Shown piece after piece: positions 14,606-34,600 of a DNA stretch of 64,000 nt (position 1 is its first letter; each line of letters begins with the position of its first letter). Made by a program: the position numbers and the translations under genes. The notes below the pieces were generated by a model. The model was not told the DNA's origin. It saw nothing but the letters and a program-made list of their open reading frames with translations, and searched no databases. Source of the DNA: Catellatospora coxensis (lineage in GTDB: Bacteria; Actinomycetota; Actinomycetes; Mycobacteriales; Micromonosporaceae). The stretch is from assembly GCF_016862635.1 (NCBI RefSeq), contig NZ_BONI01000021.1, positions 1-64,000 on the forward strand, given 5' to 3'.

Positions 14606-14791
14606 CATCGGCTCCGATCAGGACGGAGGTGAGGGCGCGCACGCCCGCGTTGCCGGGCGGTGCGGCGCCACCCATCGAGTCGCACCAATTCTGAGGCCCA
14701 CCGAGTCACGGTGCGGCCGACAGCTCACCGAACAGACGTGATCGGCGCACGTCTTCATCAGTTCTCTCTACGGGAGAGGTGCCAACCGATC

Positions 14792-18673
<3,882 letters not shown>

Positions 18674-19522: not shown

Positions 19523-21199
19523 TCAACCTCTGACGACGAAGTCCAGCTCACCGACGGGGTTGGCGAACTGGCTGACCCGCAGCGACACCTGCATCCGCCA
19601 CGTCCCGGCGACCGGGAGCATGACCTGCGCCGTGTACAGGCCCGCCGACACCTGCGTCAGCGGGACGGCGCCGAGCGACGTCCCGCCGGAGGACAGGCGT
19701 ACCACCGGCGGGGCGACGCCCTCGGTGGGTTCGCCGGCCGCGGTGGTCAGCCGCAGGGTGATGGTGTTGGAGCCGCGGGTGAGCGGGTTGAGGGAGGCGC
19801 GCACCTTGATGTCGCCCAGGGTCGTCTCGTGCGTGTCCGGATCGGCCTCGGCCGACGCGCTCGCGGGCCGGGGGTCGGCCTCGGGGCTGGTGTCGACGAG
19901 GAATCCGGTGATGAGCAGGGCGACGGCGAGGAATGCGCCCTCGATCGCGGTCGCGCGCACCACCGGTCGGGAGTGCGCCTGCGGGCCGGTCCTGCTCGCC
20001 GCCCGCCTGAGGCGGGGGAGCAGCGACCACCTGTTCCACGCCGCGATGGCCAGAGCCGCCAGCACGACGGCGATCTTCGCCAGGACCAGCCGGCCGTAGC
20101 CGGTGTCGACGAGAGCCGTCCACGAACCGAGGATCCGCCACACGAGCAGCGTGCCGGTGGCGACCAGGGCCGCGAGGACGCCCGCGGCGGCGGTCGAGAA
20201 CCGGGCGAGCACCTCGGCCGCGGTGGTGCCACGGCCGGCCAGGGCCGGCAGGGTCAGCGCCAGTCCGGCGAGCCCGCCGAGCCAGACGCTGCCCGCGAGC
20301 AGGTGCAGCGCGTCGGCGCCGACGACGGGGAGTTCGGGGCTGGCCGCGCGGGTGTGCCCGACCAGGGCGGGGGCCATGGCCGCGAGCGCGGCGGCTGCTG
20401 CCGCCGCGACGTGCCGCCGTCGTGCCGCCGAGCCCGTGCTGAGCAGCGTCACGGCCAGCGCCAGCCCACCCACGACGGCCCCGGTGACGGCGTACTCGGT
20501 CAGCGGCAGGGAGGACCAGGTCGCACCCTGGCTGAGCAGGGACGGCCCGCCGCCGAGCAGGTAGACCGCGGTGATCGGCAACGCGGCGAGCCAGGCCACG
20601 GCCGCGGCGGCACCGGCGGCGCGCGCGAGGGCGGCGATCCGGCGTCGTGGGCGATCGGCGCCGGGGTCGGCGGGCAGGAACAGGGCGGCGAACGCGACGA
20701 GCCCGGCGGCGAGCAGGAGGCCGAGGTAGCCCAGCACGCGGGCCAGGGTCAGCGTCCAGGGGACCTCGGGGATGCTGCTCGGTTCAGCCGCGGCCGGGGT
20801 GTTGACGGGGGTGGGCGCGCCGACGGAGAAGGTGAGCGCGCCGCTGATGGGATGGCCGTCCTCGGACACGACCCGCCAGGTGACCACGGTCGTGCCGTCG
20901 CCCAGGCGGGCGGGCAGCTCGACTTCGAGTTCAGCGCCCGTGACGGTCGGCTGCGCTTGGACCGGCTCACCCTGCGGGCCGTAGACCTGGACACCGCCCG
21001 GGACAGCGCGTACGGCTTCGTCGAAGGTGAACAGGATCCGCTCGGGTGCGGTCTGCAGCACCGCGCCCTCGGCCGGGTCGGTGCTGGTGAGGTGCGCGTG
21101 CGCGTGCGCCGGCTGGGGCAGGCCGAGCAGCATCGCGGAGACGAGGACCAGGACCAGCAATGCCGTCGTCCGGATCCGCCGCGCCCCTTGGCCGGTCAT
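19523..21199 (-). CDS. CopC-CopD fusion copper protein
   Basis: A 558-residue exported and membrane protein. The signal peptide ends in AHAHAHLTSTDP; the His at the mature N-terminus is the CopC copper ligand. Residues 29-130 are the CopC beta-barrel, with GHPISGALTFSVG near its end. Residues 150-440 are the CopD domain with about eight helices. A beta-rich tail (470-558; TTLGDIKVRASLNPL) resembles the FixH/YtkA-type domain. Fusions of this kind (YcnJ-like) take up or handle copper outside the membrane. ATG 21199 overlaps the ycnI-like gene stop by four bases, so the two are coupled. Confidence 0.9.
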   Translation of the reverse strand: MTGQGARRIRTTALLVLVLVSAMLLGLPQPAHAHAHLTSTDPAEGAVLQTAPERILFTFDEAVRAVPGGVQVYGPQGEPVQAQPTVTGAELEVELPARLGDGTTVVTWRVVSEDGHPISGALTFSVGAPTPVNTPAAAEPSSIPEVPWTLTLARVLGYLGLLLAAGLVAFAALFLPADPGADRPRRRIAALARAAGAAAAVAWLAALPITAVYLLGGGPSLLSQGATWSSLPLTEYAVTGAVVGGLALAVTLLSTGSAARRRHVAAAAAAALAAMAPALVGHTRAASPELPVVGADALHLLAGSVWLGGLAGLALTLPALAGRGTTAAEVLARFSTAAAGVLAALVATGTLLVWRILGSWTALVDTGYGRLVLAKIAVVLAALAIAAWNRWSLLPRLRRAASRTGPQAHSRPVVRATAIEGAFLAVALLITGFLVDTSPEADPRPASASAEADPDTHETTLGDIKVRASLNPLTRGSNTITLRLTTAAGEPTEGVAPPVVRLSSGGTSLGAVPLTQVSAGLYTAQVMLPVAGTWRMQVSLRVSQFANPVGELDFVVRG

Positions 21200-21966
21200 G
21201 GCCGGCGGCGCTGTCGGACGAGCGCCGTGCCGCCGAGCAGCGCGCCGAGGACCCCGGCCACCAGCGCGGCGATCGTCAGTGCGCGGTCCGTTCCCGGCGC
21301 GGGCGCCGCGGCGGGGGCGTGCGTGGCGTGGGCGTCCCCGGTGGCCGTGTGGTGGAGCGTGCCCGCGGCGGGCGCGGAGGTGGTGAAGCTCGGGGCGGGC
21401 AGTTCGAGCGCCTCGGCGTTCCGCCCGTCCTGGGCGACCTCGATCCAGGCGGATTCGCCCTGCTCGCAGGTCTGGATGGTCGGGAAGACGAGCTCGGTCC
21501 CCGCGGTCTCGGGCAGCTGGACCGAGAGTTCGAAGACCTCGCGGTAGCCGTTCGGGAGCGGGGACTGCGTGCTGAACGAGACCGAGGCGACCCGTTGCAC
21601 GATCTTGTTGCCGTGGGCGTCCACCGCGGGCGGGTCGACCGTCTCGGTCTGCTTCGCGATCGTCCACAATGCCGTCCGGGTGGGGGTCACCGAGGTGATC
21701 TGCGGCGGGATCTGAATGGTGATCTTGGTGGTGGGCGAGTCCTCGCAGCCGTGCCCGACGCTGAACTGCAGGACGGCGTGGGCGCCGGCCGCGGTCGTGG
21801 ACGGGGTGACGGTGACGTGCGCACTGGCCGGGTCCGCGAAGCCGAACACGCTGACGATCAGCGTGGCGGCGCTGGTCTGCAGGACGCGCCGGGCTTGCGT
21901 TCGGGTCGAACGGCGGTCGTGCCGGCCGGCCTGGATCCGGGCGGATCCGATGTCATTGCGCCGCAT
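21196..21966 (-). CDS. YcnI-like DUF1775 copper-associated protein
   Basis: A 256-residue exported protein. The signal segment LQTSAATLIVSVFGFADPASA is followed by HVTVTPSTTAAGAHAVLQF; the mature N-terminal His is the known copper ligand of YcnI proteins. The central GCEDSPTTKITIQIP and the C-terminal membrane helix (LTIAALVAGVLGALLGGTALV) with RQRRRP complete the family plan. It is coupled by a four-base overlap to the CopC-CopD gene. ATG 21966 is preferred; the upstream extension to 22053 is not signal-like. Confidence 0.88.
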   Translation of the reverse strand: MRRNDIGSARIQAGRHDRRSTRTQARRVLQTSAATLIVSVFGFADPASAHVTVTPSTTAAGAHAVLQFSVGHGCEDSPTTKITIQIPPQITSVTPTRTALWTIAKQTETVDPPAVDAHGNKIVQRVASVSFSTQSPLPNGYREVFELSVQLPETAGTELVFPTIQTCEQGESAWIEVAQDGRNAEALELPAPSFTTSAPAAGTLHHTATGDAHATHAPAAAPAPGTDRALTIAALVAGVLGALLGGTALVRQRRRP

Positions 21967-22131
21967 GTCGCTTCCTCGCGCCTCAGGACGAGCCGGCTCG
22001 CCGGTGTTGATCTGTGCGGGCTCGCCGATTCGGGGTCGCAGTGATTCGACCAACAGGCCGAACCGATGTCAAGTATGTGAACTCTCGGCGGACCCTGGCC
22101 TTGCGGCGTCTCAGACAGCACAGTAGCGTCA

Positions 22132-22147
22132 GTTCACGTTGATGAAC
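22132..22147. promoter_or_regulatory. GTTC-N8-GAAC operator upstream of the tautomerase
   Basis: GTTCACGTTGATGAAC, inside the longer AGTTCA-N6-TGAACT inverted repeat, lies 42 bases before the tautomerase ATG. The same architecture recurs before kduI and the copper radical oxidase gene, so it is the best candidate site for the nearby IclR regulator. Confidence 0.6.
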
Positions 22148-22151
22148 TGAG

Positions 22152-22166
22152 GTCCATATCGTGGAC
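22152..22166. promoter_or_regulatory. Second small palindrome upstream of the tautomerase
   Basis: GTCCATATCGTGGAC has five-base arms (GTCCA/TGGAC) around a five-base centre, four bases after the GTTC-N8-GAAC site. It may be part of the same operator region. Confidence 0.35.
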
Positions 22167-22189
22167 AGCCGCTAAATGGGAGGGGCGCC

Positions 22190-22414
22190 ATGCCTAACAT
22201 CACCGTCGAACTGCTCGCGGGCCGGTCCGTGGAGCAGCGCAGGGCGTTCGCCCGAGCCGTGACCGACAGCGCCGTCGAGATCCTCGGAGCCCGTGAGCAG
22301 GATGTCCGCATGGTGTTCACCGAGATCACCGCGGACGTCGTGGCCAACGGAGGTGTGCTGGCCAGCGAGGACGCCTCGCGCGCCGGGGTGGTGGCCGCGC
22401 TCGAGAAGCGCTGA
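22190..22414 (+). CDS. 4-oxalocrotonate tautomerase family protein
   Basis: A 74-residue small tautomerase. After Met removal the N-terminal Pro (MPNITVELLAGR) is the catalytic base of the 4-OT family; Arg12 of the pattern LAGRSVEQRRAF is also present. The family interconverts keto and enol forms of 2-oxo acids. A GGGAGG site lies just before the ATG. Its upstream operator matches those of kduI and the copper radical oxidase, so it may act on a 2-keto acid in the same catabolic route. It converges on iclR. Confidence 0.88.
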   Translation: MPNITVELLAGRSVEQRRAFARAVTDSAVEILGAREQDVRMVFTEITADVVANGGVLASEDASRAGVVAALEKR

Positions 22415-22462
22415 GACCACCGCTCGTTCGCGCACTGTGCGGGCGCGAGCGGGTGGAGGAGC

Positions 22463-22491
22463 GGGGCCGACCCATGGGCAGGGTCGGCCCC
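22463..22491. terminator. Hairpin between tautomerase and iclR
   Basis: GGGGCCGACCC (22463-22473) and GGGTCGGCCCC (22481-22491) pair perfectly around a seven-base loop between convergent genes. A weaker CCACCGCTCG/CGAGCGGGTGG hairpin lies just before it. Confidence 0.75.
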
Positions 22492-22553
22492 ATCGTCGTT
22501 GTCGGGGCCGGTCGGGTGGTGTGCCGCCGGCAGAGCGCGACCCGTGCGCCGGG

Positions 22554-23369
22554 TCAGCGCACCAGCCGGTTGTCGCGCATCGCCGACAGGCGGGCTTTCA
22601 CACTCAGCAGGGTCTCGATGATGAAGTCCTCCCGGCCCTTCTTGAGCCGGCTGATCGGGACCGCGATGCTCAGCGCGTCGACCGACTGGTGCGAGAACGG
22701 CAGCGCGACGCCGAAGCAGCGCACGCCCAGGCAGGATTCCTCGGTCTCCTCCGCGTAGCCGAGCTGGGCGGCCTTGTCGATCGTCGCCAGCAGCGCGTCC
22801 CGGTTCGTGATCGTCTGAGAGGTGATGGCCTTGATCTGGTGGGGGACGAACGTGCCGCGCACGTCTTCGGGCATCTCGGCGAGCATCGCCCGGCCCAGGG
22901 CCGTGCTGTAGGCCGGCAGGCGGCGGCCGACGGCCGAGTACATGCGCAGCGGGTGTTTGGACTCGCGCTTGGCGGTGTAGATGACCTCCGCGCCTTCCAG
23001 CCGGCCCAGGTGCACCGTCTCCTCGGTGGCCGCCGCGATCTCGTCCATCACGCCGCTGGCGCGCGCCAGCACCGGGTCGCCGTCGATGTAGGCGGAGCTG
23101 ACCGTCAGCGTGTGCACCCCGAGCCGGTAGACGCTGCCGGTCTGGTCGGTGTCCAGCCAGCCGCGGGCGCACATGGTGCGCAGTAGCGCGTGCAGGCTGC
23201 TCTTCGGGATGCCGAGGCGGGTCGCCAGCTGCAACTGGGTGCCGGGTCCGTTGGCCGCGATGTCGTCCAGGACGTCGAGGACACGCGCAGCGGATTTGAC
23301 CGCCGAGGTGGCGGAGCTGCCGTTGACCGTCTTGTCCGCGTCCACCGCGGCCTCCTCATCAATCGTCAC
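22554..23369 (-). CDS. IclR-family transcriptional regulator
   Basis: A 271-residue regulator of the size usual for IclR/KdgR. The winged helix-turn-helix is at residues 22-85 (QLQLATRLGIPKSSLHALLRTMC), and the effector-binding domain spans 95-265 (EETVHLGRLEGAEVIYTAKRES; LPAYSTALGRAMLAEM; GVRCFGVALPF). IclR proteins of this type often sense 2-keto-3-deoxygluconate or related acids. It is divergent from kduI across 142 bases that hold a full and a degenerate GTTC-N8-GAAC site, so it most likely controls kduI and itself. Confidence 0.93.
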   Translation of the reverse strand: MTIDEEAAVDADKTVNGSSATSAVKSAARVLDVLDDIAANGPGTQLQLATRLGIPKSSLHALLRTMCARGWLDTDQTGSVYRLGVHTLTVSSAYIDGDPVLARASGVMDEIAAATEETVHLGRLEGAEVIYTAKRESKHPLRMYSAVGRRLPAYSTALGRAMLAEMPEDVRGTFVPHQIKAITSQTITNRDALLATIDKAAQLGYAEETEESCLGVRCFGVALPFSHQSVDALSIAVPISRLKKGREDFIIETLLSVKARLSAMRDNRLVR

Positions 23370-23404
23370 AGTGCATGTTCCCGACGTTATACCACTAAAC
23401 CACA

Positions 23405-23420
23405 GTTCACATGGAGGGAC
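23405..23420. promoter_or_regulatory. Degenerate GTTC-N8-GGAC operator near the iclR promoter
   Basis: GTTCACATGGAGGGAC differs from GTTC-N8-GAAC by one base. It lies 35 bases upstream of the iclR start codon, just beyond a minus-strand TATAAC box, which fits autoregulation. AGTTCACAT here is repeated exactly at 23471-23479. Confidence 0.5.
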
Positions 23421-23433
23421 TGATTTCGGCCCC

Positions 23434-23463
23434 TTGACTCGTGATCGGGGCCATAGGTATCGT
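23434..23463 (+). promoter_or_regulatory. Candidate kduI promoter
   Basis: TTGACT (23434-23439) and TATCGT (23458-23463) are separated by 18 bases and fit the actinomycete housekeeping promoter pattern. The operator at 23472-23487 falls at the expected transcription start. Confidence 0.5.
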
Positions 23464-23471
23464 CGCGTTCA

Positions 23472-23487
23472 GTTCACATAGCGGAAC
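23472..23487. promoter_or_regulatory. GTTC-N8-GAAC operator upstream of kduI
   Basis: GTTCACATAGCGGAAC lies nine bases after the -10 box and 25 bases before the kduI start. A further GTTCACA half-site follows at 23491-23497. A bound repressor would block initiation of the whole kduI-kduD-transporter operon. Confidence 0.6.
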
Positions 23488-23511
23488 CGGGTTCACAAAC
23501 GAGGAGCAGTT

Positions 23512-24327
23512 TTGATCGAGGTAAGGCACTCCGTATCGCCGTCGAGCGTGGAGACGGCAACGAATGCGGACCTGCGGAAGAACTTTCTCGTCGACAGCCT
23601 GTTCCGCACCGGCGAGGTGCACGGGGTCTACACCCACGACGACCGGCTGGTCGTCGGCGGAGCGGTTCCCGGCGCCGGCCGGCTCGAACTGCCGGCCTGG
23701 GACGTGCTCGGCACGGACTCGCACCTGGCCCGCCGCGAGCTCGGCATCGTCAACGTCGGCCAGGCCGGCCACGTGCTCGTCGACGACGAGAAGTTCGAGC
23801 TGCGCCACCTGGACGGGCTGTTCGTCGGCCGCGGCAGCGAGGTCGTGTTCGCCGGGGCCGACGCCGCGTTCTACTTCGTCTCCGCTCCGGCGCACGCGTC
23901 CTACCCCACCGCGCTGCTCAGCCACGCGGCGATCGAGCCGGTCAAGCTGGGCACGGCGCAGGGCGCGAGCGAGCGCAGCCTCTACCGGTACGCCTGGGGT
24001 CAGGAGCTGCAGACCTCGGTGCTCCAGTTCGGCGTGACCGTCATCGCCGACGGCTCCGTCTGGAACACGTTCCCGCCGCACCTGCACGACCGGCGCACCG
24101 AGGTCTACATGTACGTCGACCTCGACGAGAAGGACCGGATCTTCCACCTGATGGGCCAGCCCGGCGTCTCGCGCCACCTCGTCGTGCGCGACCGCGAGGC
24201 CGTCATCTCCCCGCCGTGGTCGATCCACTCGGGCGTCGGCACCGGCTCGTACGCCTTCATCTGGGCGATGGCCGGCGAGAACAACGACTACACCGATCTG
24301 CAGGCCGTGGCGCTGGAGGACCTGTGA
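23512..24327 (+). CDS. kduI: 5-dehydro-4-deoxy-D-glucuronate isomerase
   Basis: A 271-residue KduI family cupin isomerase that converts 5-dehydro-4-deoxy-D-glucuronate, the product of unsaturated uronates, to 3-deoxy-D-glycero-2,5-hexodiulosonate. Metal ligands are visible in FPPHLHDRRTEVYMYVDL (two His, Glu) and in SPPWSIHSGVGTGSYAFIW (His). The length fits the family. The start is TTG 23512, six bases after GAGGAG. Its stop overlaps kduD by four bases (GTGA). It opens a long operon with kduD, an ABC importer and an aldehyde dehydrogenase, controlled by the divergent IclR. Confidence 0.94.
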   Translation: MIEVRHSVSPSSVETATNADLRKNFLVDSLFRTGEVHGVYTHDDRLVVGGAVPGAGRLELPAWDVLGTDSHLARRELGIVNVGQAGHVLVDDEKFELRHLDGLFVGRGSEVVFAGADAAFYFVSAPAHASYPTALLSHAAIEPVKLGTAQGASERSLYRYAWGQELQTSVLQFGVTVIADGSVWNTFPPHLHDRRTEVYMYVDLDEKDRIFHLMGQPGVSRHLVVRDREAVISPPWSIHSGVGTGSYAFIWAMAGENNDYTDLQAVALEDL

Positions 24328-25103
24328 CCACCCCGCCCGCCGCGCCACCGCGGTCGCCGTTCGACCTCAGCGGTCGCTGCGCCGTGGTGACCGGGGCCGG
24401 CCGCGGCCTGGGCCAGGCCATCGCCTACGGGCTCGCCCAGGCGGGAGCCGACCTGGTCCTGCTGGGCCGGCCGGGCAGCCAGTCGGCCACCCGCGACCGG
24501 GTGGCCGAGCTCGGCCGGGACGTGCAGCTCGTCGACCTCGACGTCAGCGACCACGACGCCGTCGAGCGGGTCGCCGCGCGGGTCACCGCCGACCGCCAGG
24601 TCGACATCCTGGTCAACAACGCCGGCATCATCGACCGCGAGGACTCGGTGGACGTGAGCCGGCAGTCGTGGAACCGCGTGGTGGACGTCAACCTGAACGG
24701 CCTGTTCCTGCTCTGCCAGCAGTTCGGGCGCCCGATGACCGAGCGCGGGCACGGCAAGATCGTCAACATCGCCAGCCTGCTCTCCTTCCAGGGCGGACTG
24801 CGCGTGGCGGCGTACGCCGCCAGCAAGCACGGCGTCGCCGGCGTCACCAAGGCCCTGGCCAACGAGTGGGGCCGGTTCGGGGTGCAGGTCAACGCCATCG
24901 CGCCCGGCTACATGAACACCGACAACACCACCGCGTTGCGGGCGGACCCGGACCGCTCCCGGTCCATCCTCGAACGCATCCCCGCCGGTCGCTGGGGAGA
25001 CGCCGCCGACATCGCCGGAGCGGCCGTCTTCCTGAGCTCCGCCGCCGCAGACTACGTCAACGGCCATGTCCTGGTCGTCGACGGAGGTTGGATGGCCCGC
25101 TGA
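24324..25103 (+). CDS. kduD: 2-deoxy-D-gluconate 3-dehydrogenase type SDR
   Basis: A 259-residue short-chain dehydrogenase. The NAD(P) site is VTGAGRGLGQAIAYGL; LVNNAGIID follows, and the catalytic set is Ser in NIASLLSF plus YAASK. The KduD-like tail NAIAPGYMNTDNTTALR is present. It reduces 3-deoxy-D-glycero-2,5-hexodiulosonate to 2-keto-3-deoxygluconate, the step after KduI. GTG 24324 overlaps the kduI stop by four bases, so the pair is translationally coupled. No KDG kinase or aldolase gene is in the window. Confidence 0.92.
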   Translation: MTTPPAAPPRSPFDLSGRCAVVTGAGRGLGQAIAYGLAQAGADLVLLGRPGSQSATRDRVAELGRDVQLVDLDVSDHDAVERVAARVTADRQVDILVNNAGIIDREDSVDVSRQSWNRVVDVNLNGLFLLCQQFGRPMTERGHGKIVNIASLLSFQGGLRVAAYAASKHGVAGVTKALANEWGRFGVQVNAIAPGYMNTDNTTALRADPDRSRSILERIPAGRWGDAADIAGAAVFLSSAAADYVNGHVLVVDGGWMAR

Positions 25104-25232
25104 CCCTGGCCTCCAGCGCACCAAACCCGTACGATCCGCCGACCGCCATCCGCCCAAATGGCGGCAGGTTTCTCGCTCGATTTGTGCCACCCCCAGCCGG
25201 ATTCTCCGGCACTGAAGAGATCGAGGATCACC

Positions 25233-26318
25233 GTGAAGATCGCGTTTCGTCCCACCGCAGTCTTATTGACCCTGTCCCTGGCAGTCGTCGGCCTGGCCGC
25301 CTGCAGCGAGGCCCCGGCCGGGGAGAACGACCCCGCCGGCGCGGGCGCCTGCAAGCCGGCCGACGTCAAGCTGGTCGGCCAGGTCCGCAACGAGTCCAAC
25401 CCCTACGAAGCCTCGTGGCTGGCCGGCGGCGACGCCTTCGCCAAGACGGTCGGGCTCACCCAGCAGCGCCTCACCTACGGCGGTGACTCCACCAAGCAGC
25501 AGGAGCAGATCAGCCAGATCCTGGCCGGCGACACCAAGTGCCTGGTGATGAACGTGCTCCCCAACGGCGACTCGGACACCGCGCCGATCGTCAAGGGCGC
25601 CGACAAGGCCGGCGCGTTCCTCGTCACCCAGTGGAACAAGCCGGCCGACCTCAAGCCGGCCGACTACAAGACGTGGATCAGCCACATCACCTACAACGGC
25701 GTCGAGTCCGGCAAGCAGATCGGTGACGCGCTGGCCAAGTCGATCGGCGGCTCGGGCGGCATCATCGCGCTGCAGGGCGTCCTGGACACCGCGGCCGCCA
25801 AGGACCGGTTCGCCGGCCTGCAGGAGTCGCTCAAGGCGAACCCCGGCGTCCAGTTGCTCGACCAGCAGACCGCCAACTTCTCCCGCGCCGAGGCGCTGAC
25901 GGTCACCAAGACGCTGCTGACCAAGCACGGCGACAAGGTCAAGGGCATCTGGGCCGCCAACGACGACATGGCGCTCGGCGCTCTGGAAGCACTCCAGCAG
26001 GCGGGCAAGTCCGGCAAGGTCGCGGTCGTCGGCATCGACGCCGTGCCCGACGCCGTCACAGCGGTCCAGAACGGCACCATGACCGCCACCGTCTCCAGCG
26101 ACGGCACCTGGCAGGGCGGCATCGGCCTGGCGATCGGCTTCTGTGTCGCCACCGGCAAGCTGCAGGTCAAGGACATCGCCGCCGACAACCGGGCGTTCTT
26201 CGCCGAGCAGTTCCTCATCACCAAGGACAACGCCGCCGACTTCGCCCAGCCGAAGACGAACCCGTCGGACTTCGACTGCGCCAACGTCTTCAAGCGTGTG
26301 GCCGGGCCCCTGAAGTGA
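25233..26318 (+). CDS. Ribose-type ABC transporter substrate-binding lipoprotein
   Basis: A 361-residue lipoprotein of the RbsB/Peripla_BP_4 family. The signal ends in the lipobox LAAC near residue 23. The bilobed fold is recognisable by KLVGQVRNESNPYEASWL at the start of lobe one, VKGIWAANDDMALGALEAL and VAVVGIDAVPDAVTAVQNG. It binds the imported sugar or sugar acid outside the membrane. GTG 25233 is used because the signal begins there, after GGAT-rich purine sequence. It starts 129 bases after kduD and overlaps the first permease by four bases. Confidence 0.9.
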   Translation: MKIAFRPTAVLLTLSLAVVGLAACSEAPAGENDPAGAGACKPADVKLVGQVRNESNPYEASWLAGGDAFAKTVGLTQQRLTYGGDSTKQQEQISQILAGDTKCLVMNVLPNGDSDTAPIVKGADKAGAFLVTQWNKPADLKPADYKTWISHITYNGVESGKQIGDALAKSIGGSGGIIALQGVLDTAAAKDRFAGLQESLKANPGVQLLDQQTANFSRAEALTVTKTLLTKHGDKVKGIWAANDDMALGALEALQQAGKSGKVAVVGIDAVPDAVTAVQNGTMTATVSSDGTWQGGIGLAIGFCVATGKLQVKDIAADNRAFFAEQFLITKDNAADFAQPKTNPSDFDCANVFKRVAGPLK

Positions 26319-27313
26319 CGGTCACATCCGGGGTCGCCGCGTCTCGCCGGATCTTCCGGCGGGGCGCGGCGTTTCGAGACGCCGGGCCACCGGTCGCGCT
26401 GGTCGTCCTGTTCCTGATCTTCGCGGCCCTGAGCCCGCAGTTCCGCAGCATCGAGAACGTCCAGAACATCGTGGACGCCGCCGCGGTGCTCGCCGTGGTC
26501 ACCTGCGGCATCACGTTCGTGCTGATGATGGGGTCCATCGACCTGTCGGCCGCCGGCGTGATGGGCGCGTCCGCGCTGACCGTGTCGCTGCTGGTGGCCA
26601 ACAACCGCAACGACAACGACTTCGGGCTGGCCGGGATCGCGGTCGCCGTGGTGCTGGGCTGTGCGTTCGGCTGCCTGAGCGGGCTCGCTCTGGTCCTGCT
26701 GAAGGTGCCGTCGTTCATGGCGACGCTCGGGGTGTCGGCCATCGGGCTCGGCGTCGCGACCCTCATGTTCGCCGGCGTCCAGCCCAACATCACCGACGCC
26801 ATGCTCAAGAGCTGGGCGATCGAGCGCTTCCTCGGGCTGTCCTATCTCACCTGGATCGCCGCCGCGTGCATCCTGGTGGGCTGGCTCATCCAGCGCTACA
26901 CCCGGCTCGGCCGGTACGCGTTCGCGATCGGCGGCGCCGAGGAGGTGCTCACGCTGTCGGGCGTGAAGGTGAAGCCGTACAAGGTAGCGGTCTTCGCCCT
27001 CGCCGGGGCCTTCTACGGCCTCGGCGGGGTCATGGTGACCAGCCAGCTCGGCGCGGGCCTCGTCCAGGCCGGCAACGGCTACGACTTCTCGGCCATCACC
27101 GCCGCCGTCGTCGGCGGCACCCTGCTCACCGGGGGCCGGGGCGGCATCCTGCACTCCGCCGTGGGTGTCGTGCTGGTCATGGTGCTCACGAACGGTCTAG
27201 TGCAGGTCGGGGTCAGCCCGTACTGGCAGGGTGGCGTCGAGGGCCTCATCGTCGTCGCCGCGGTCGCCGCCGCGGTCATCCCCCAGCGTCGTAGAAACCA
27301 GGTGGTCAAGTGA
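26315..27313 (+). CDS. Ribose-type ABC transporter permease (first)
   Basis: A 332-residue RbsC-family membrane protein with eight to ten hydrophobic segments. Family signatures are LMMGSIDLSAAGVMGASAL, KVPSFMATLGV and VVGGTLLTGGRGGILHSAVG. GTG 26315 overlaps the binding-protein stop, and its own stop overlaps the ATPase start, so subunits are made in step. A second, different permease follows the ATPase, so the channel is probably a heterodimer. Confidence 0.92.
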   Translation: MTVTSGVAASRRIFRRGAAFRDAGPPVALVVLFLIFAALSPQFRSIENVQNIVDAAAVLAVVTCGITFVLMMGSIDLSAAGVMGASALTVSLLVANNRNDNDFGLAGIAVAVVLGCAFGCLSGLALVLLKVPSFMATLGVSAIGLGVATLMFAGVQPNITDAMLKSWAIERFLGLSYLTWIAAACILVGWLIQRYTRLGRYAFAIGGAEEVLTLSGVKVKPYKVAVFALAGAFYGLGGVMVTSQLGAGLVQAGNGYDFSAITAAVVGGTLLTGGRGGILHSAVGVVLVMVLTNGLVQVGVSPYWQGGVEGLIVVAAVAAAVIPQRRRNQVVK

Positions 27314-28863
27314 GCGTCCCAGCCGAACGGGAGCCCACCACGTCCGCGCCGGTGCCGGCGCTGGAGGTCCGCGGCCTCGTCAAGCACTACCCGGGGGTGA
27401 AGGCGCTCGACGGCGTCGACCTGGTGGTCCATCAGCACGAGGTGCTGGGCCTGGCCGGCGAGAACGGCGCGGGCAAGTCCACGCTGCTCAAAGCGCTGGT
27501 CGGCCTGGTCACCCCCGACGCCGGCGAGATCTACGTCCGCGGCGGGGCCGTCAAGCTGCGCAGCGTCGTCGACGCCGCCGACCACGGCATCGGGATGGTG
27601 TTCCAGGAGCAGTCCCTGGTGCCCAACCTGACCGCCGCGGAGAACATCCTGCTCGGCGGCGAAGGCCCCGCGGTCCGTCGCGGTGTCTACCGCTGGGACG
27701 TCATGCGCCGGCTGGCCCAGGAGCAGCTCGACAAGATCGGCTCGAAGATCGATCCGCTGGCCCGCACCGACTCGCTCTCCTTCGCCGACCGGCAGATGGT
27801 CGAGATCGCCAAGGTGCTGCGTATCGAGCAGCGCAGCCAGCACCCGCCGGTCATCATCCTGGACGAGCCGACCTCGGTCCTGGAGTCCAAGGAGATCGAG
27901 ACCCTGTTCGCGCAGATCCGCCGGCTGCGCGAGTTCGCCTCGGTCGTGTTCGTCTCGCACCGCCTCGACGAGGTGCTCGACGTGTGCGACCGGGTGACCG
28001 TGCTGCGCAGCGGCCAGTCGGTCGGCGAGGTCGCCACCGCCGGCGCCGTCCCGCGCGAGCTGCACCGGATGATGATCGGTTCCACCGGATCCGACGACCA
28101 CTACCACGAGAACGCCGCCACGCCTGTCGCGGCCGAGCAGCCCCGGCTGTCGGTGCGCGGGCTGTCGGGCAAGTCGTTCCAGGACATCGACCTGGACGTC
28201 GCGGCCGGTGAGATCGTGGCGATCGTCGGCGTGCACGGGTCCGGCCGGGAGGACGTCTGCCGTGCCCTGTTCGGCATCGAGCCGACGACCGCCGGTGAGA
28301 TCCGGATGGACGGCAAGAAGCTCAGCCTGCCCAACACCCGGGCCGCGTGCGCCGCCGGCATCGGCTACGTGCCGGCCGAACGCAAGATCGAGGGCATGGT
28401 CGGCCCGATGTCGGTGGCCGAGAACATGACCCTGACCAAGCAGAAGGCCCGCTGCGCGGGCCCCTTCGTGGCGCCGAAGAAGCAAGCCGGCCTGGTGGAC
28501 CGCTGGATCGAGCGGCTGTCCATCCGCACGCCGGGCCGCGACACCCCCATCCAGCGGCTGTCCGGCGGCAACCAGCAGAAGGTGGTGCTGGCCCGGTGGC
28601 TGGTCGGTGGCGACATCCGGCTGCTCCTGCTGGACCACCCGACCCGCGGCCTGGACATCGGCGCCCGCTCGGAGGTCTACCGGCTGATGCGCGAGCTGGC
28701 CGCGAGCGGGGTCGCCACCGTGCTGCTGGGCGACAGCCTCGAGGAGGCCATCGGCATGGCCGACCGCATCCTGGTCATGAACGACGGCCGGGTCGTGACC
28801 GAGGTCGCCTGCCCCAACGGCGGCAAGCCGAGCCCTCTGGACCTCGTGAAAGAGATGGTATGA
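27310..28863 (+). CDS. Ribose-type ABC transporter ATPase (two fused NBDs)
   Basis: A 517-residue RbsA-type double ATPase. NBD1 has Walker A GENGAGKST (about residue 55), signature-like LSFADRQMVEIAKVL and Walker B VIILDEPTSVL. NBD2 has a degenerate Walker A (GVHGSGRED), signature LSGGNQQKVVLARWL and Walker B LLLLDHPTRGLD, with His where the catalytic Glu sits, so only NBD1 probably hydrolyses ATP; asymmetry of this kind is usual in the family. GTG start with four-base overlaps at both ends. Confidence 0.93.
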   Translation: MSVPAEREPTTSAPVPALEVRGLVKHYPGVKALDGVDLVVHQHEVLGLAGENGAGKSTLLKALVGLVTPDAGEIYVRGGAVKLRSVVDAADHGIGMVFQEQSLVPNLTAAENILLGGEGPAVRRGVYRWDVMRRLAQEQLDKIGSKIDPLARTDSLSFADRQMVEIAKVLRIEQRSQHPPVIILDEPTSVLESKEIETLFAQIRRLREFASVVFVSHRLDEVLDVCDRVTVLRSGQSVGEVATAGAVPRELHRMMIGSTGSDDHYHENAATPVAAEQPRLSVRGLSGKSFQDIDLDVAAGEIVAIVGVHGSGREDVCRALFGIEPTTAGEIRMDGKKLSLPNTRAACAAGIGYVPAERKIEGMVGPMSVAENMTLTKQKARCAGPFVAPKKQAGLVDRWIERLSIRTPGRDTPIQRLSGGNQQKVVLARWLVGGDIRLLLLDHPTRGLDIGARSEVYRLMRELAASGVATVLLGDSLEEAIGMADRILVMNDGRVVTEVACPNGGKPSPLDLVKEMV

Positions 28864-29855
28864 GCACTCCCGTCGCCATGCAACCGGTCGCCGAACCCGC
28901 GACCGGCAGGACCGGCCCTCGCCCGGCTCAGCGGCTCACCGGGTTCATGCCGCTCATCGCCCTGGTGGCGCTGGTGGCCGCGCTGACGATCGCCGACCCG
29001 GACTTCCTGACCGCGCGGAGCCTGACCGCGGTGGCGCGGACCGCCGCGCCGCTCATCGTGCTCGCCGCGGGGGCGACGCTCGTCGTCCTGTGCGGCGGCA
29101 TCGACCTGTCCATCGCGGCACTCGCCTCGCTGACGACGGTCCTGCTGGCCCTCTGGCTGCCGCACCTCGGCGGCCTGGCCACACCGGCCGTCATCGGGGT
29201 CGCGGCGGCGATCGGCGCGGTGCAGGGCGTGGCGCACGTGCTGCTGCGGATTCCGTCGTTCATCGTCACCCTGGGCGGGATGAGCATCCTGTCCGCGGTC
29301 GCCCTCGTCGTCTCCGGCGCCGGCACCGTGCGGGTGGTCGACGACTCGCCGGTCGCGTGGCTCGACCTCTATCTCGCCGGCTACGTGCCCATGTCGGCCG
29401 CGATGGCGCTGCTCGTCGTCGCCCTGATCGCCCTCGTCCTCAAGGTGACCCCGCTGCAGAGCTGGATCTCGGCCACCGGCTACTCCGAGTCGGCCGCGCG
29501 CCTGGCCGGCACACCCGTCGACCTGGTGAAGATCGGCGCGTTCTGCGTCTCCGGCGCCTGCGCCGGGTTCGCCGCGGTCATGCTGGTCTCCCGCCAGTTC
29601 AGCGGCGGCCCCACCATGGCCGACAACCTCCTGCTGCCGGCGGTCGCGGCGATCGTCGTCGGCGGCACCGCGATCACCGGCGGCCACGGCAGCCTGTGGC
29701 GCAGTCTCGCCGGAGCGTTCGTCGTGACGCTGCTGCGGGTCGGCCTGCCGATCGTCGGTGTGCCGTCCGCCTACGAGCAGATCCTCTACGGCGTCATCAT
29801 CGTCGTCGCCGTCGCACTCACCCTCGACTGGTCGAAGGTGTCGATCATCAAATAA
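28860..29855 (+). CDS. Ribose-type ABC transporter permease (second)
   Basis: A 331-residue RbsC-family permease, divergent in sequence from the first. Signatures are VVLCGGIDLSIAALASL, RIPSFIVTLGGMSIL and VVGGTAITGGHGSLWRSLAG. ATG 28860 overlaps the ATPase stop by four bases. It completes an importer of unusual gene order: binding protein, permease, ATPase, permease. It ends 53 bases before the aldehyde dehydrogenase. Confidence 0.92.
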   Translation: MSTPVAMQPVAEPATGRTGPRPAQRLTGFMPLIALVALVAALTIADPDFLTARSLTAVARTAAPLIVLAAGATLVVLCGGIDLSIAALASLTTVLLALWLPHLGGLATPAVIGVAAAIGAVQGVAHVLLRIPSFIVTLGGMSILSAVALVVSGAGTVRVVDDSPVAWLDLYLAGYVPMSAAMALLVVALIALVLKVTPLQSWISATGYSESAARLAGTPVDLVKIGAFCVSGACAGFAAVMLVSRQFSGGPTMADNLLLPAVAAIVVGGTAITGGHGSLWRSLAGAFVVTLLRVGLPIVGVPSAYEQILYGVIIVVAVALTLDWSKVSIIK

Positions 29856-29908
29856 CCGGTCCGAATCCGATGCCACGACCAAGGTAACCGCACAAAGGGA
29901 AGGCAATC

Positions 29909-31405
29909 ATGCCCAACGAGAACTCCGCGCTCCTGCCCGCCGTCCGCTCGTTCCTGTCCGCACCGAAGCAGCTGCTCATCGGCGGCGAGTGGGTGGACGC
30001 GAAGGACGGCAGGACGTTCGCCACCGTCAACCCGTCGACCGAGGAGGTGCTCGTCGAGGTCGCGTACGCGTCGGCCGTCGACGTGGACCGCGCGGTCGTG
30101 GCGGCCCGTACGGCGTTCGAGTCCGGCTCCCCGTGGTCGAGAATGACCCCGCGCGACCGTTCCCACCTGCTGTGGCGCATCGGTGACCTCATCGACGCCC
30201 ACGCCGACGAGTTCGCCCAGCTGGAGGCCCTCGACAACGGCAAGCGCGTCGAGGCGGCCCGCGACGGCGACGTGGCGACCTCCGCCGAGCTGTTCCGCTA
30301 CTTCGCGGGCTGGGCCACCAAGATGGAGGGCACGTCCATCCCGATGTCCGTGCCGGGACGCGAGTTCCACGCGTACACCCGCCGCGAGCCGGTCGGCGTC
30401 GTCGCGGGCATCGTGCCGTGGAACTTCCCCCTGCTGATGGCCTGCTTCAAGATCGTCCCGGCGATCACCGCGGGCAACACCGTCATCCTCAAGCCGGCCG
30501 AGCAGACCCCGCTGACCGCGCTGCGCCTCGGTGAGCTGCTGCTGGAGGCCGGCCTGCCCGCCGGCGTCGTGAACATCCTGCCCGGCTTCGGCGACACCGG
30601 GGCCGCGCTGGTCGACCACCCCGGCGTCGACAAGGTCGCCTTCACCGGCAGCACCGAGGTCGGCAAGAAGATCGCCGCCGCGGCCTCGGGCAACCTCAAG
30701 AAGGTCTCCCTGGAGCTCGGCGGCAAGGCGCCCAACATCATCTTCAACGACGCCGACATCGACGCCGCCGTCGCCGGCGCGGTGCTGGGCGGCTACTTCA
30801 ACGAGGGGCAGTGCTGCGTCAACGGCTCGCGCCTGTACGTCCAGCGCGGTGTCTTCGACCGGGTCGTCGAAGGCGTGGCCGCGGCCGCTCGCGCGATCAA
30901 GGTCGGCGACGGCTTCGACCCGGCCTCCCACATGGGGCCGCTGGTGTCCAAGGAGCAGCACGAGAAGGTGCTGGGCTACATCCGCGGGGCGGTGGCCGAA
31001 GGCGCCGTCCTGAACGCGGGGAGCGCCGACGCGGTCGGCGACCGCGGCTTCTTCGTGGCGCCGACGCTCATCACGTCGGTGAACGAGCGGATGGCCGTGC
31101 AGACCGACGAGATCTTCGGCCCGGTCGTGACGGCGATCCCGTTCGACACCGAGGACGAGGTCGTCGCGGCGGCGAACAACACGGTGTACGGGCTCGCCGC
31201 GGGCGTGTGGTCGCAGAACATCGGCACCGCGCACCGCGTGGGCGCCCGCCTGCGGGCCGGCACGGTGTGGCTCAACACGTGGCACGCCGACGACGTCACG
31301 CTGCCGCGCGGCGGGTTCAAGCAGTCGGGCTGGGGGCGCGAGCTCGGATCCTTCGGGCTGGACGACTACACCGAGCTCAAGACCGTCATCGCCGAGCTGC
31401 GGTGA
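29909..31405 (+). CDS. NAD-dependent aldehyde dehydrogenase
   Basis: A 498-residue ALDH-superfamily enzyme of usual length. It has [15 protein letters not shown] and [11 protein letters not shown] for NAD binding, the general-base Glu in [12 protein letters not shown] (about residue 270) and the catalytic Cys in [15 protein letters not shown] (about 304). It oxidises an aldehyde to an acid in the cytoplasm. Placed last in the kduI operon, it may handle an aldehyde from the same substrate, possibly one formed by the extracellular oxidase; this is inference. AAGGGAAGG precedes ATG 29909, and a strong terminator follows. Confidence 0.93.
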
Positions 31406-31445
31406 CCTCAGCTCGCCGTCGAGGTGAGCGATGCGCGTGACCTGA

Positions 31446-31485
31446 AGAGGTAGGCCCCCGGAATCCTTCCGGCGGGCCTACCTCT
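31446..31485. terminator. Terminator closing the kduI operon
   Basis: AGAGGTAGGCCC (31446-31457) pairs perfectly with GGGCCTACCTCT (31474-31485); the inner CCGGAA/TTCCGG extends the stem. Confidence 0.85.
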
Positions 31486-31534
31486 GTATCGGTCGTCGCC
31501 TGAACGGGTGCGAATGATCGTGTATCAAGTTCTG

Positions 31535-31550
31535 GTTCGCATATATGAAC
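31535..31550. promoter_or_regulatory. GTTC-N8-GAAC operator upstream of the copper radical oxidase
   Basis: GTTCGCATATATGAAC has the same architecture as the sites before kduI and the tautomerase. CATATATGAAC (31540-31550) is also a perfect 11-base inverted repeat with 31565-31575. It lies 38 bases upstream of the -35 box. Confidence 0.6.
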
Positions 31551-31564
31551 TCCTAGAAACATGC

Positions 31565-31580
31565 GTTCATATATGTAGAC
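31565..31580. promoter_or_regulatory. Second, degenerate operator copy upstream of the copper radical oxidase
   Basis: GTTCATATATGTAGAC matches GTTC-N8-GAAC except for one base in the second half. Its first 11 bases mirror 31540-31550. The two sites are centred 30 bases apart, about three helix turns, so two dimers could bind on one face just upstream of the promoter. Confidence 0.5.
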
Positions 31581-31587
31581 CCAGTTC

Positions 31588-31617
31588 TTGACACGCCATT
31601 CACGAGTGTCTTACGTT
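31588..31617 (+). promoter_or_regulatory. Promoter of the ThuA-copper oxidase gene
   Basis: TTGACA (31588-31593) followed after 18 bases by TACGTT (31612-31617), matching TAnnnT. The operator pair ends seven bases before the -35 box. Confidence 0.6.
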
Positions 31618-31678: not shown

Positions 31679-34600
31679 ATGAAAGTGCCCCGCAGGTCTG
31701 CCCGCTCTCACCTGTTCACCCACCTCGATCGACTGCTCGGCGGACTCTCCGGCCGAGCTGTCGCGACGTTCGCCGCGCTGACGCTGGCCGTCACCGGGTT
31801 GACCGTTCCCGCCGCCGCGCAGGCCGCGCCTGCCGACGACGGCCGGCTCAACATCCTGCTGTTCTACAAGTCCAATTTCCACGCCTCGCACGTGCAGGCG
31901 CGCGAGGCGGTGCGTGCCCTGGTCACCCAGCTCGGCACGCAGTACAACCAGCCGGTCGAGATCCAGGAGACCGAGGACCCCGCGGTCTTCAACACCGCCA
32001 ACCTCGCCGTCCGCGACGCGGTCGTCTTCGCGCAGACCGGTGGCGTGCTGTTCAACGCGTCCCAGCGCAGCGCGCTGGAGGCCTACATCCGCGGCGGCGG
32101 CGGCTTCATGGGCATGCACTACACCGGCTGGTCGGCCGGTGAGAGCGAGCACGACGTCAACCCGTTCTACGCCCGCCTCATCGGCGCCGCCTCCGAGGGC
32201 CACCCGGAGAACCCCGGCGTGCGGCCGGGCCGGGTGTTCGTGACGAACACCAGCCACCCGCTCACCCAGGGCGTGACGGCGAGCATCACCCGCAGCGACG
32301 AGTGGTACGACTGGGTCGTCAACCCGGCCCCGTGGGTGCGCACCCTCATCGAGGCCGACGAGTCCTCGTACGGCATGGGCCGGCAGGGCTCCATGCACCC
32401 GCTCACCTGGTGCCAGACGATCGACTCCGGCCGGTCCTGGTACACCTCCATGGGCCACGAGGGCACCGCGTACACCGAGGCGTACATGCGCGCCCAGATG
32501 AAGAACGGCCTGGCCTACGCCGCCAAGCTGCTGCCCGCGGACTGCTCGCCGCCGGTCAAGGACCAGGCCGGTTCCTGGAGCGGCGTCACCCCGTGGCCGC
32601 TGGTCCCGATCAACATGGCGCTGACCTCCGACGGCCGCGTGCAGTCGTTCGGCAGCGTCGGCGGCTGGGGCACCGACACCACGCCGTACGACTGGACCGG
32701 CAACGACTCGGTGACGCAGGGCGGCCAGATGGAGGTCGACGTCTGGGACCCCGCCCAGCCGCGCACCCTGGCGAACCTGCGCAACGGCATCCTGCCGAAC
32801 ACCACGTACACCGACCTGTTCTGCGCCATGCAGGTGCAGTCCCCGCACGACCACTCCACGATGACGGTCGGCGGTGACGACGGCATGGGCGGCAACTCGC
32901 CCAACGACGGCGCTATCGGTGTCACCAGCTACACCACCAACAACGGGCTGCAGAACGAAGCCCCGATGAACTTCCCCCGGTGGTACCCGACCGGCACCAC
33001 CATGCCCAACGGCGACGTCGTCGTCCAGGGCGGCAGCCTGACCGGCGGACCGGGCGGGCGCGGTGTGCTCACCCCGGAGATCTACACCCCGGAGCAGGGC
33101 TCGGGCTGGAAGAAGCTCGACGGCGCCCGGAGCCCGGCCGCGTACGGCGACGGCGGCTCCGACCACGCCGGCGCGGACGAGAACCGCTGGTGGTACCCGC
33201 GGGCGTTCGTGTCCCCGACCACCGGGACGCTGTTCAACATCACGGGCACCCAGATGTACGAGCTCAACCCGTACGGCAACAGCGGGACCGGCCAGCTGAC
33301 GCTGCGCGGCACCCTGCCGACCAACATCTCCAACCAGGGCACGAACGGCAACCCGGTCGGTGCCACCTCCACCGCGACGATGTTCCGCCCTGGCAAGATC
33401 CTGCAGGTCGGCGGCGGCTGGTGGGGCAACGGCGGCGGCCCCGACGGCGCCCGTGCCGGCTTCGTCGTCGACATCACCGGCGGCACCGCCAACCCGGTCG
33501 TCACGGCGACCCAGCCGATGAAGTACCAGCGCCACTGGGCGACCTCGACGCTGCTGCCCGACGGCCGCGTGCTGGTCACCGGCGGCGGCCGGGAGAACAA
33601 CGGCAACGGCGGGTACGTCACCAACCCCGAGATCTGGAACCCGGACACCGGGGGCTGGACCGAGGTCGTCATCCCGGGCGAGCGCGCCCGGCTCTACCAC
33701 TCCACGGCCCTGCTCCTGCCCGACGGCCGGGTGATGATCGGCGGCGGCGGCGCCCCCGGTCCGCGCAACTACACCGATGTGGAGTACTACTCCCCGTCGT
33801 ACCTGTTCGACGGCAACAACCCCGCTCCTCGCCCGGTGATCAACACCGCGCCGGCGAAGATCGGCTACAACGGCACCTTCCAGATCAGCGCGACGGGCAC
33901 GATCTCCAAGGTCGCGCTGATCCGCAACGGCTCGGTGACGCACGGGTTCAACAACGACCAGAACTTCCAGAACCTGGCGTTCAGCCAGTCCGGTGGGACG
34001 GTCACCGTCAACTCGCCGCTCAACGGCAACTACGCGCCGGCCGGTGCGTACATGCTGTTCGTCTTCGACGCCGCCGGCACCCCGTCGGTCGCGAAGATCG
34101 TCAAGATCGACCCCGCGGTCATCATGACGAACCTGAACCCGCGGGTGGTCGACCAGTTCGAGTACCCGCGCCTGCCCGCCGAGTGGCGCACCGACAACCC
34201 GCCCGCGACGGTCGACGTCGCCGCCGGCAACAGCCGGATGGTGCCGTGGACGGTCCAGAGCCAGGTCCAGCTGGTGCGCGGCAACGCCACCGGACAGGGC
34301 GGCCTCGGCTTCACCGGCTACCAGCTGTCCCTGGGCGCCTCGGGCAGTGTCAGGCGCACCGTCAGCGATCTCACCCCCGGTGCCACGTACCGGATATCGC
34401 TGCGCTACGCCCGCGACGCCCGGGCAGCCGGGACCGCCGCGGCGACGGCGACCCTGTCGATCGGCAGCCTGAGCACCACGCTCACCGCCACGACAGCGCT
34501 GCCGTCGACGGCCGCCTACGGCACCTACTCCGGCACCTTCACGGCCGCGACCGCCTCGCAGACGCTCACCCTGACCGGGACCGGCACCGGCCTGATGATC

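Follow-up and report, generated by a model that had tools for sequence, protein, structure and literature searches.

Introduction

Three-box binding sites are a predicted feature of 32 IclR-family regulator groups, with PcaU requiring the third box, and tandem sites have also been described, as far as the accessible text of the comparative survey goes (PMC8222616). For group 1 of the family, the same text gives the consensus GKTYCRYW3-4RYGRAMC and a subgroup, NGT-12-ACN (Suvorova and Gelfand 2021; PMC8222616), in which dehydrogenases and sugar-acid genes abound. Bacillus YcnI is a copper-binding protein, and import of the metal is attributed to CopD domains, according to the accessible portion of a separate report (PMC8424229). 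Here, we describe a locus of Catellatospora coxensis, contained in a 64-kb stretch of contig NZ_BONI01000021.1 (the window, meaning all 64,000 nucleotides analysed) from a surveyed genome of 9.35 Mb, in which a GTTC/GAAC-type operator recurs at promoters surrounding the gene for an IclR-family regulator (22554-23369, minus strand).

Judged by sequence comparison, these sites are very probably the operators of this regulator, and place five promoters in one local regulon. The five would be those of a tautomerase gene, of iclR itself, of an operon running from kduI and kduD through an ATP-binding cassette (ABC) transporter to an aldehyde dehydrogenase, of a ThuA-copper radical oxidase, and of ycnI-copCD, so that one regulon, in a group of soil actinobacteria, appears to link the supply of copper and the import of sugar with a secreted copper radical oxidase, the aldehyde dehydrogenase and KduI/KduD. 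The literature searched, mostly outside subscription papers, contained no description of this regulon, and no paper joining kduI with galactose oxidase, or IclR with kduD, kduI and Streptomyces. For copper radical oxidase together with ThuA, it offered only a Trichoderma review, going by the part of that review that is accessible.

A three-box operator at five promoters

Alignment of the promoters revealed that most of the operators have three boxes, GTTC-N8-GRAC-N3-GTTC, and are longer than the preliminary description of this DNA had made them. An extra box stands beside the palindrome and the boxes alternate in direction, a layout already described for the IclR family (PMC8222616), so the class of motif is known. 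The third box is clear at kduI, ycnI and oxidase site 2, reads CTTC or TTTC at iclR, is weak at the tautomerase (GGTC or AGTC) and is absent at oxidase site 1. For the middle box, ycnI has GACA, and oxidase site 2 in most cases AGAC or GGAC.

Individual sites were assessed using leave-one-out matrices, which sidestep the circularity of training, with the expectation being the number of equal-or-better sites per genome. The kduI operator (23472-23494, plus strand) carries the full GTTC-N8-GAAC-N3-GTTC, with an expectation of 0.07 under the three-box matrix and 1.3 under a 16-bp matrix. It lies just downstream of an inferred promoter at 23434-23463 on the same strand (-35 TTGACT, 18-bp spacer, -10 TATCGT; identified by eye), which is mostly conserved across six genomes. 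The three-box expectation is 0.01 for the tautomerase operator (22132-22154, plus strand; GTTC-N8-GAAC-N3-GGTC) and 0.39 for the operator on the iclR side of the iclR-kduI intergenic region (23405-23427, plus strand; GTTC-N8-GGAC-N3-TTTC).

The oxidase has two operators separated by 14 bp. Operator 1 (31535-31550, plus strand) is the two-box GTTCGCATATATGAAC, with p = 3.9e-9 per position under the leave-one-out 16-bp matrix. Operator 2 (31565-31587, plus strand; GTTC-N8-AGAC-N3-GTTC) abuts the -35 element TTGACA at 31588, which opens an inferred promoter (31588-31616, plus strand; TTGACA, 17 bp, TTACGT; by eye) that is conserved in six genomes. The fifth promoter, overlooked in the preliminary description, is that of ycnI-copCD, with the operator GTTCACATACTTGACATCGGTTC (22060-22082, minus strand; GTTC-N8-GACA-N3-GTTC). 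Its GACA box forms part of the -35 TTGACA of the inferred ycnI promoter (22044-22072, minus strand), and its three-box expectation is 1.35.

The cluster specificity of the three-box form was examined using a profile (R2) built from 31 sites and applied at E up to 10. Among the candidates scored, R2 gave 30 matches in seven cluster-bearing genomes, all 30 inside the cluster (29 in six Catellatospora clusters and one at the oxidase promoter of G039, presumed to be Blastococcus xanthinilyticus, from a family other than that of Catellatospora), and 0 matches in five congeners without the cluster. The candidates scored were 150 of 503-614 in each cluster-bearing Catellatospora genome, 150 of 189 in G039, and 150 of 528-663 in the five congeners. 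The five matches in the source genome are at kduI, the tautomerase, ycnI, iclR and oxidase site 2. Applied to fetched loci, R2 found 91 matches in 25 loci of orthologues of this regulator, lying by position upstream of cluster genes (the gene belonging to the match at L151:227 is beyond the fetched edge), and 2 matches, at one place, in 25 of 55 loci of other IclR regulators (L165-L219).

Two further sites, C7:144120 and C81:4878, were considered as regulon members. Both fit a stricter two-box pattern, GTTCNCATN4GAAC, which has four copies in the genome, two of them in the window, and each is kept in five of the six cluster-bearing Catellatospora genomes; C81:4878, at the start of a gene that looks hydrolase-like by eye, is a weak match to a two-box profile (R1). 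As neither is among the three-box matches, membership is not claimed for them. The first of these, GTTCGCATGGACGAAC at G000:C7:144120-144135 (L138:4121), stands just before a gene that, by eye, encodes a GH18-like secreted protein, and is identical in five of the six genomes.

Conservation across genomes and orthologue loci

The gene order of the operon from kduI to the aldehyde dehydrogenase is the same in six Catellatospora genomes (those named here are presumed to be C. methionotrophica, G001; C. sichuanensis, G004; C. vulcania, G006; and Catellatospora sp. KI3, G009), and all six carry the sites at their tautomerase, iclR, kduI and oxidase promoters, with one base changed in oxidase site 1 of G009. 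At the tautomerase promoter, the half-sites are invariant across the six close species while six of the eight spacer bases vary, a contrast matched in 3 of the 166 placements tried with that geometry. In G039, whose IclR is 52% identical to that of the window, there is an exact operator in the stretch separating iclR from an operon that begins, by eye, with kdgK-like and kdgA-like (2-keto-3-deoxy-6-phosphogluconate (KDPG)-aldolase-like) genes, followed by kduI, and the oxidase promoter has two degenerate sites that keep the 14-bp gap, then GTTCTTGAC.

The cluster is present across many actinobacterial genera. The 25 orthologue loci (L140-L164) were drawn from Micromonosporaceae, Herbidospora, Nonomuraea, Kribbella, Nocardioides, Actinotalea and Blastococcus. 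In these, 50 of 61 exact GTTC-N8-GAAC sites fall within 300-bp upstream stretches, which make up 23,053 of 495,848 bp (4.6% of the DNA), a density ~93 times that elsewhere. An exact site is found at the kduI promoter in 20 of the loci, and three of the other five (L161, L163 and L164) have one between iclR and the kdg genes. The tautomerase has an exact two-box site in all 17 loci where it is divergent and in none of the four where it follows iclR, and is absent from the remaining four. At the oxidase promoter, the 20 loci with a usable start are divided between exact sites (nine), one mismatch (eight) and two mismatches (three), a one-mismatch match within a 330-bp stretch being weak evidence. 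Conservation across genomes, position and the specificity of the three-box form together support the earlier proposal of a single regulon joining the tautomerase, the kduI operon and the copper oxidase.

Weighing the alternatives

It might be supposed that GTTC-N8-GAAC is simply frequent and that its copies at promoters are coincidental. The exact sites at 22132-22147, 23472-23487 and 31535-31550 were found as the preliminary description had placed them, together with the one-mismatch copy at 23405-23420; its further one-mismatch copy at 31565-31580 has two mismatches (AGAC for GAAC) and drops off the one-mismatch list. That description, silent on a fourth exact site at 15874, had also called three sites striking against about one expected by chance. 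This depends on the null chosen: shuffles of the window gave 0.47 exact sites, with one in 100 reaching four, whereas the genome holds 293 copies of the bare pattern, or ~2 per 64 kb. The 15874 site lies within a ThuA-glucose/sorbosone dehydrogenase reading frame and looks like a chance occurrence in coding DNA, so that one of the window's four sites is coding. With the bare pattern this frequent genome-wide, the number of sites is weak evidence, and counting them was dropped; copies with up to one mismatch (45 in the window vs 17.6 expected) are likewise uninformative by number. Scatter through the genome, which had been named in advance as telling against a regulon, does hold for the bare pattern but not for the three-box operator. 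Coincidence is nevertheless extremely improbable, in view of the concentration of exact sites upstream of genes in the orthologue loci and the near-restriction of three-box profile matches to the cluster. A different possibility is that a sister IclR, 45% identical to that of the window, controls some of the promoters, especially that of the oxidase, either alone or with the local regulator. Encoded on contig C127 (G000:C127:15144-17720; L137), it is divergent from kdgA-kdgK (KDPG-aldolase-like and 2-keto-3-deoxygluconate (KDG)-kinase-like genes), the next genes of the pathway, and its tandem operator, GTTCATGTTGGTGAAC-N3-AGTCACGTATGTGACC, is conserved, with one or two changes in a few congeners. 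GTTCATGTTGGTGAAC, which is of the GTTC-N8-GAAC type and paired with GTCACGTATGTGAC, departs from the tautomerase site in the spacer, at two bases, and is similar in its left half to oxidase site 2 (GTTCATRTATG). Such control is quite unlikely, as G009 retains the full cluster and operators but gives no match to the sister at E up to 1e-30, the genomes with the sister but no cluster (G002, G007 and G010) give no R2 match, and the GTTCATGTTGGTGAAC/GTCACGTATGTGAC pair is not seen at the aligned cluster promoters.

It is also conceivable that only the tautomerase, iclR, kduI and the oxidase form a regulon, with ycnI-copCD lying outside it, under the control of a copper sensor, and its apparent operator being a promoter joined to a chance half-site. 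The TTGACA within the element would be expected to be conserved in any case, the middle box reads GACA and not GAAC, and the leave-one-out expectation exceeds one per genome. In addition, the Bacillus ycn operon has a copper-dependent repressor, as stated in the accessible text of PMC8424229. The orthologue loci bear on this in both directions. Of the 17 loci where the tautomerase is divergent, 13 have copper genes (ycnI, copCD or both) as its divergent neighbour, including L144, where ycnI was not found and copCD is directly next. The element, GTTCACATNCTTGACA, is intact in all 13 of these and altered in three of the four loci lacking the copper genes, the fourth being L147, where it is intact with no adjacent ycnI or copCD found. 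Furthermore, GTTCACAT is kept ahead of the -35 from Micromonosporaceae to Herbidospora, GTTC or ATTC occurs 19 bp past the first box in most loci, the same spacing as at kduI and oxidase site 2, and all 13 other ycnI-like genes in the genus are without the element within 350 bp. We therefore regard the exclusion of ycnI as doubtful, though deserving of serious attention, and ycnI-copCD as probably belonging to the regulon. In Actinotalea (L160), ycnI-copCD is located past the aldehyde dehydrogenase instead, and in 11 of the 25 loci no copper genes are present in the fetched DNA, so the copper link is common, not universal.

Several points weigh against assigning all five promoters to the local IclR. 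Its binding and regulation are deduced from sequence. The R1 and R2 profiles were trained on these very sites, making the ranks of training members partly circular, and scoring reached no more than 150 of the several hundred candidates in each genome. With the two-box R1, 27 of 41 matches in the seven genomes lie in the cluster and 14 outside; in the source genome three of seven are outside, the top four being cluster sites, and in G039 an outside match ranks above the cluster site. Under the 16-bp leave-one-out matrix, the tautomerase and iclR sites would be equalled 24.8 and 80.5 times genome-wide, respectively, and oxidase operator 2, at 38.8 under the three-box matrix, is weak alone. Overlap with the -35 explains part of the conservation of the ycnI element. 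With 59-77% of positions invariant in the promoters of the close species, the comparison of half-sites with spacers is non-discriminating at kduI, iclR and the oxidase; column conservation was set aside as a general test, being too weak, and is useful at the tautomerase only. The 25 loci are related to one another, and five of them are the loci of G001, G004, G006, G009 and G039, so the counts are not independent. Kribbella (L155) keeps iclR, kduI and the oxidase with only a one-mismatch site at kduI and no clear oxidase site found. Lastly, the sister IclR has its own GTTC-N8-GAAC site and uses the same half-sites, which are thus not unique to the window regulator.

Genes of the cluster

The regulator has both IclR domains above cut-off (HTH_IclR, PF09339, 39.8 vs 22 bits; IclR_C, PF01614, 128.4 vs 24 bits), placing it in the IclR family. 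On the plus strand lies the gene for a 74-residue protein of the 4-oxalocrotonate tautomerase type (22190-22414; PF01361, 49.7 vs 22 bits). The operon from kduI to the aldehyde dehydrogenase (23512-31405) is also on the plus strand, with all its genes, and comprises kduI (23512-24327; NF002091, 356.8 vs 250) and kduD (24321-25103; TIGR01832, 352.8 vs 338.85), both above equivalog cut-offs, followed by genes for a sugar-binding protein (25158-26318), a permease (26315-27313), an ATPase (27310-28863), a second permease (28872-29855) and the aldehyde dehydrogenase (29909-31405).

The oxidase gene (31679-35977, plus strand) encodes a protein of 1432 residues with ThuA, galactose-oxidase-type copper radical oxidase and laminin-G regions, judged by eye to be secreted from its signal-peptide-like N-terminus. 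Its FC, RWY, LYHS and VTH motifs align with those of galactose oxidase 9g8h, which identifies it by sequence as a likely copper radical oxidase. Within these motifs lie residues which we take to be the cross-linked Cys-Tyr pair, the second Tyr and the two His copper ligands. The match to GlxA (NF052501) is far below cut-off, at 123.5 vs 800 bits. In another genus of the family, matches to the oxidase occur in separate pieces (G019:C2:2080076-2082437 and G019:C1:636884-638149; 84, 75 and 77% identical), which suggests related fusions or rearrangement. A second ThuA protein in the window (14660-18673) also contains glucose/sorbosone dehydrogenase, PKD, CBM6 and F5/8 type C domains.

On the minus strand, ycnI (DUF1775; open frame 21196-22053, PF07987) has a true start that is probably internal, and the predicted mature N-terminus of the protein begins, by eye, with His. 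It is probably co-transcribed with the gene for a YcnJ-like CopC-CopD fusion (19523-21196, minus strand). With PF07987, PF04234 and PF05425 all above cut-off, the neighbouring DUF1775 and CopC-CopD proteins have the make-up of a predicted YcnI-YcnJ type copper pair. A largely conserved inverted repeat, TTCGACC-N4-GGCCGAA (22045-22062), overlaps the inferred ycnI -10 and may be a second operator, perhaps that of a copper sensor. Beyond the oxidase, at 37367-39616, is a gene for a P-type ATPase that has a heavy-metal domain and may act on copper, a 76% identical copy of which is near the cluster in L145.

Regulation and physiological role

The IclR protein would bind the three alternating boxes, which would suit a dimer or tetramer. 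The operator starts at about the inferred kduI start, overlaps the tautomerase start region and covers the ycnI -35, making repression the simplest reading at these three promoters, where IclR would act until an inducer is present. Both oxidase operators are upstream of the -35, and activation is equally possible there. By analogy with KdgR, candidate inducers would be KDG or precursors such as 4-deoxy-5-keto-uronate. The copper genes would presumably serve to supply the oxidase with copper.

In several orthologue loci, kdgA and kdgK come after the aldehyde dehydrogenase, whereas in Catellatospora they are located apart from the cluster, at the sister IclR. The equivalog-level KduI and KduD, taken with this linkage, give deoxy-uronate catabolism good support, its genes being divided here between two related regulators.

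A more speculative proposal, which we consider rather unlikely, is that the regulon provides an oxidative, lyase-free entry to the deoxy-uronate pathway, the same regulator inducing copper acquisition to load the oxidase. The secreted oxidase would make a C6-aldehyde on a galactosyl-type sugar, and the 4-substituent would be eliminated to leave a 4,5-unsaturated aldehyde. After import, the aldehyde dehydrogenase would convert this to an unsaturated uronate, which the tautomerase, in place of KdgF, would open to 5-keto-4-deoxy-uronate, with KduI, KduD, KdgK and KdgA completing the route. According to the accessible text of PMC3388858, galactose oxidase does yield a C6-aldehyde and, via elimination, an unsaturated aldehyde as a side product; the elimination is a chemical one, promoted by heat and alkali, and this weighs against an easy physiological oxidative route. 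Oxidising such an aldehyde would furnish the product that ordinarily comes from lyases. Ring opening is normally spontaneous or via KdgF, as far as the accessible part of PMC12838403 states.

No lyase is found among the identified regulon genes, the neighbourhood as a whole not having been scanned for lyases. Lyase supply was checked using two families, pectate lyase PF00544 and GH88/105 PF07470. G039 keeps the cluster with 0 matches to either, and PF07470 is absent in five of the seven genomes, the source genome included. The source genome has ten PF00544 matches, so pectin may be supplied in the ordinary way here. If the regulon as a whole is as proposed, a sugar-acid regulator, not a metal, switches on copper acquisition matched to one secreted copper enzyme, giving a physiological setting and testable substrates for a copper radical oxidase of bacterial origin whose ThuA fusion is unusual, and suggesting oxidative entry into a pathway usually supplied by polysaccharide lyases. 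The spread of the cluster over many actinobacterial genera makes this testable in several hosts.

Comparison with known systems

The operators are closest to those of IclR group 1, sharing GTTC/GAAC half-sites eight bases apart, with a third box that gives a second pair, GAAC-N3-GTTC, and sites ~three turns apart, here at the oxidase, as far as the accessible text of the survey allows comparison (PMC8222616). The GTYC/GRAC half-sites, whose GT and AC are separated by 12 bases, are those of the NGT-12-ACN subgroup; agreement with the inner bases RA-W4-TY is only partial, the spacers here departing from the subgroup consensus as printed in that text. The regulated set also differs in having a copper radical oxidase and copper genes, a combination not seen in the accessible part of PMC8222616. 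PcaU of Acinetobacter likewise has a palindrome and one external box in direct orientation, according to the same source (PMC8222616), but belongs to aromatic catabolism, and the window IclR is far under the PcaR/PcaU/PobR cut-off (TIGR02431, 116.1 vs 284.75 bits). KdgR of gamma-proteobacteria is also an IclR-family regulator, of pectin and KDG genes, and is the best NCBIfam match of the window IclR, below cut-off (NF011671, 136 vs 275 bits); its motif, RWWGAAACGNCGTTTCAKKA, has another arrangement, as given in the accessible text of PMC8222616.

The ycnKJI operon of Bacillus subtilis similarly pairs YcnI with a CopC-CopD (YcnJ-like) partner, but, by the accessible account (PMC8424229), is governed by the copper-dependent repressor YcnK, whereas an operator of the sugar-regulator type is found here, no ycnK search having been made. 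As for galactose oxidase and GlxA (AA5), the copper-site motifs and cross-link cysteine align with those of the oxidase in this locus, which differs in carrying ThuA in front and laminin-G domains behind, and in its genomic setting, that of sugar-acid catabolism.

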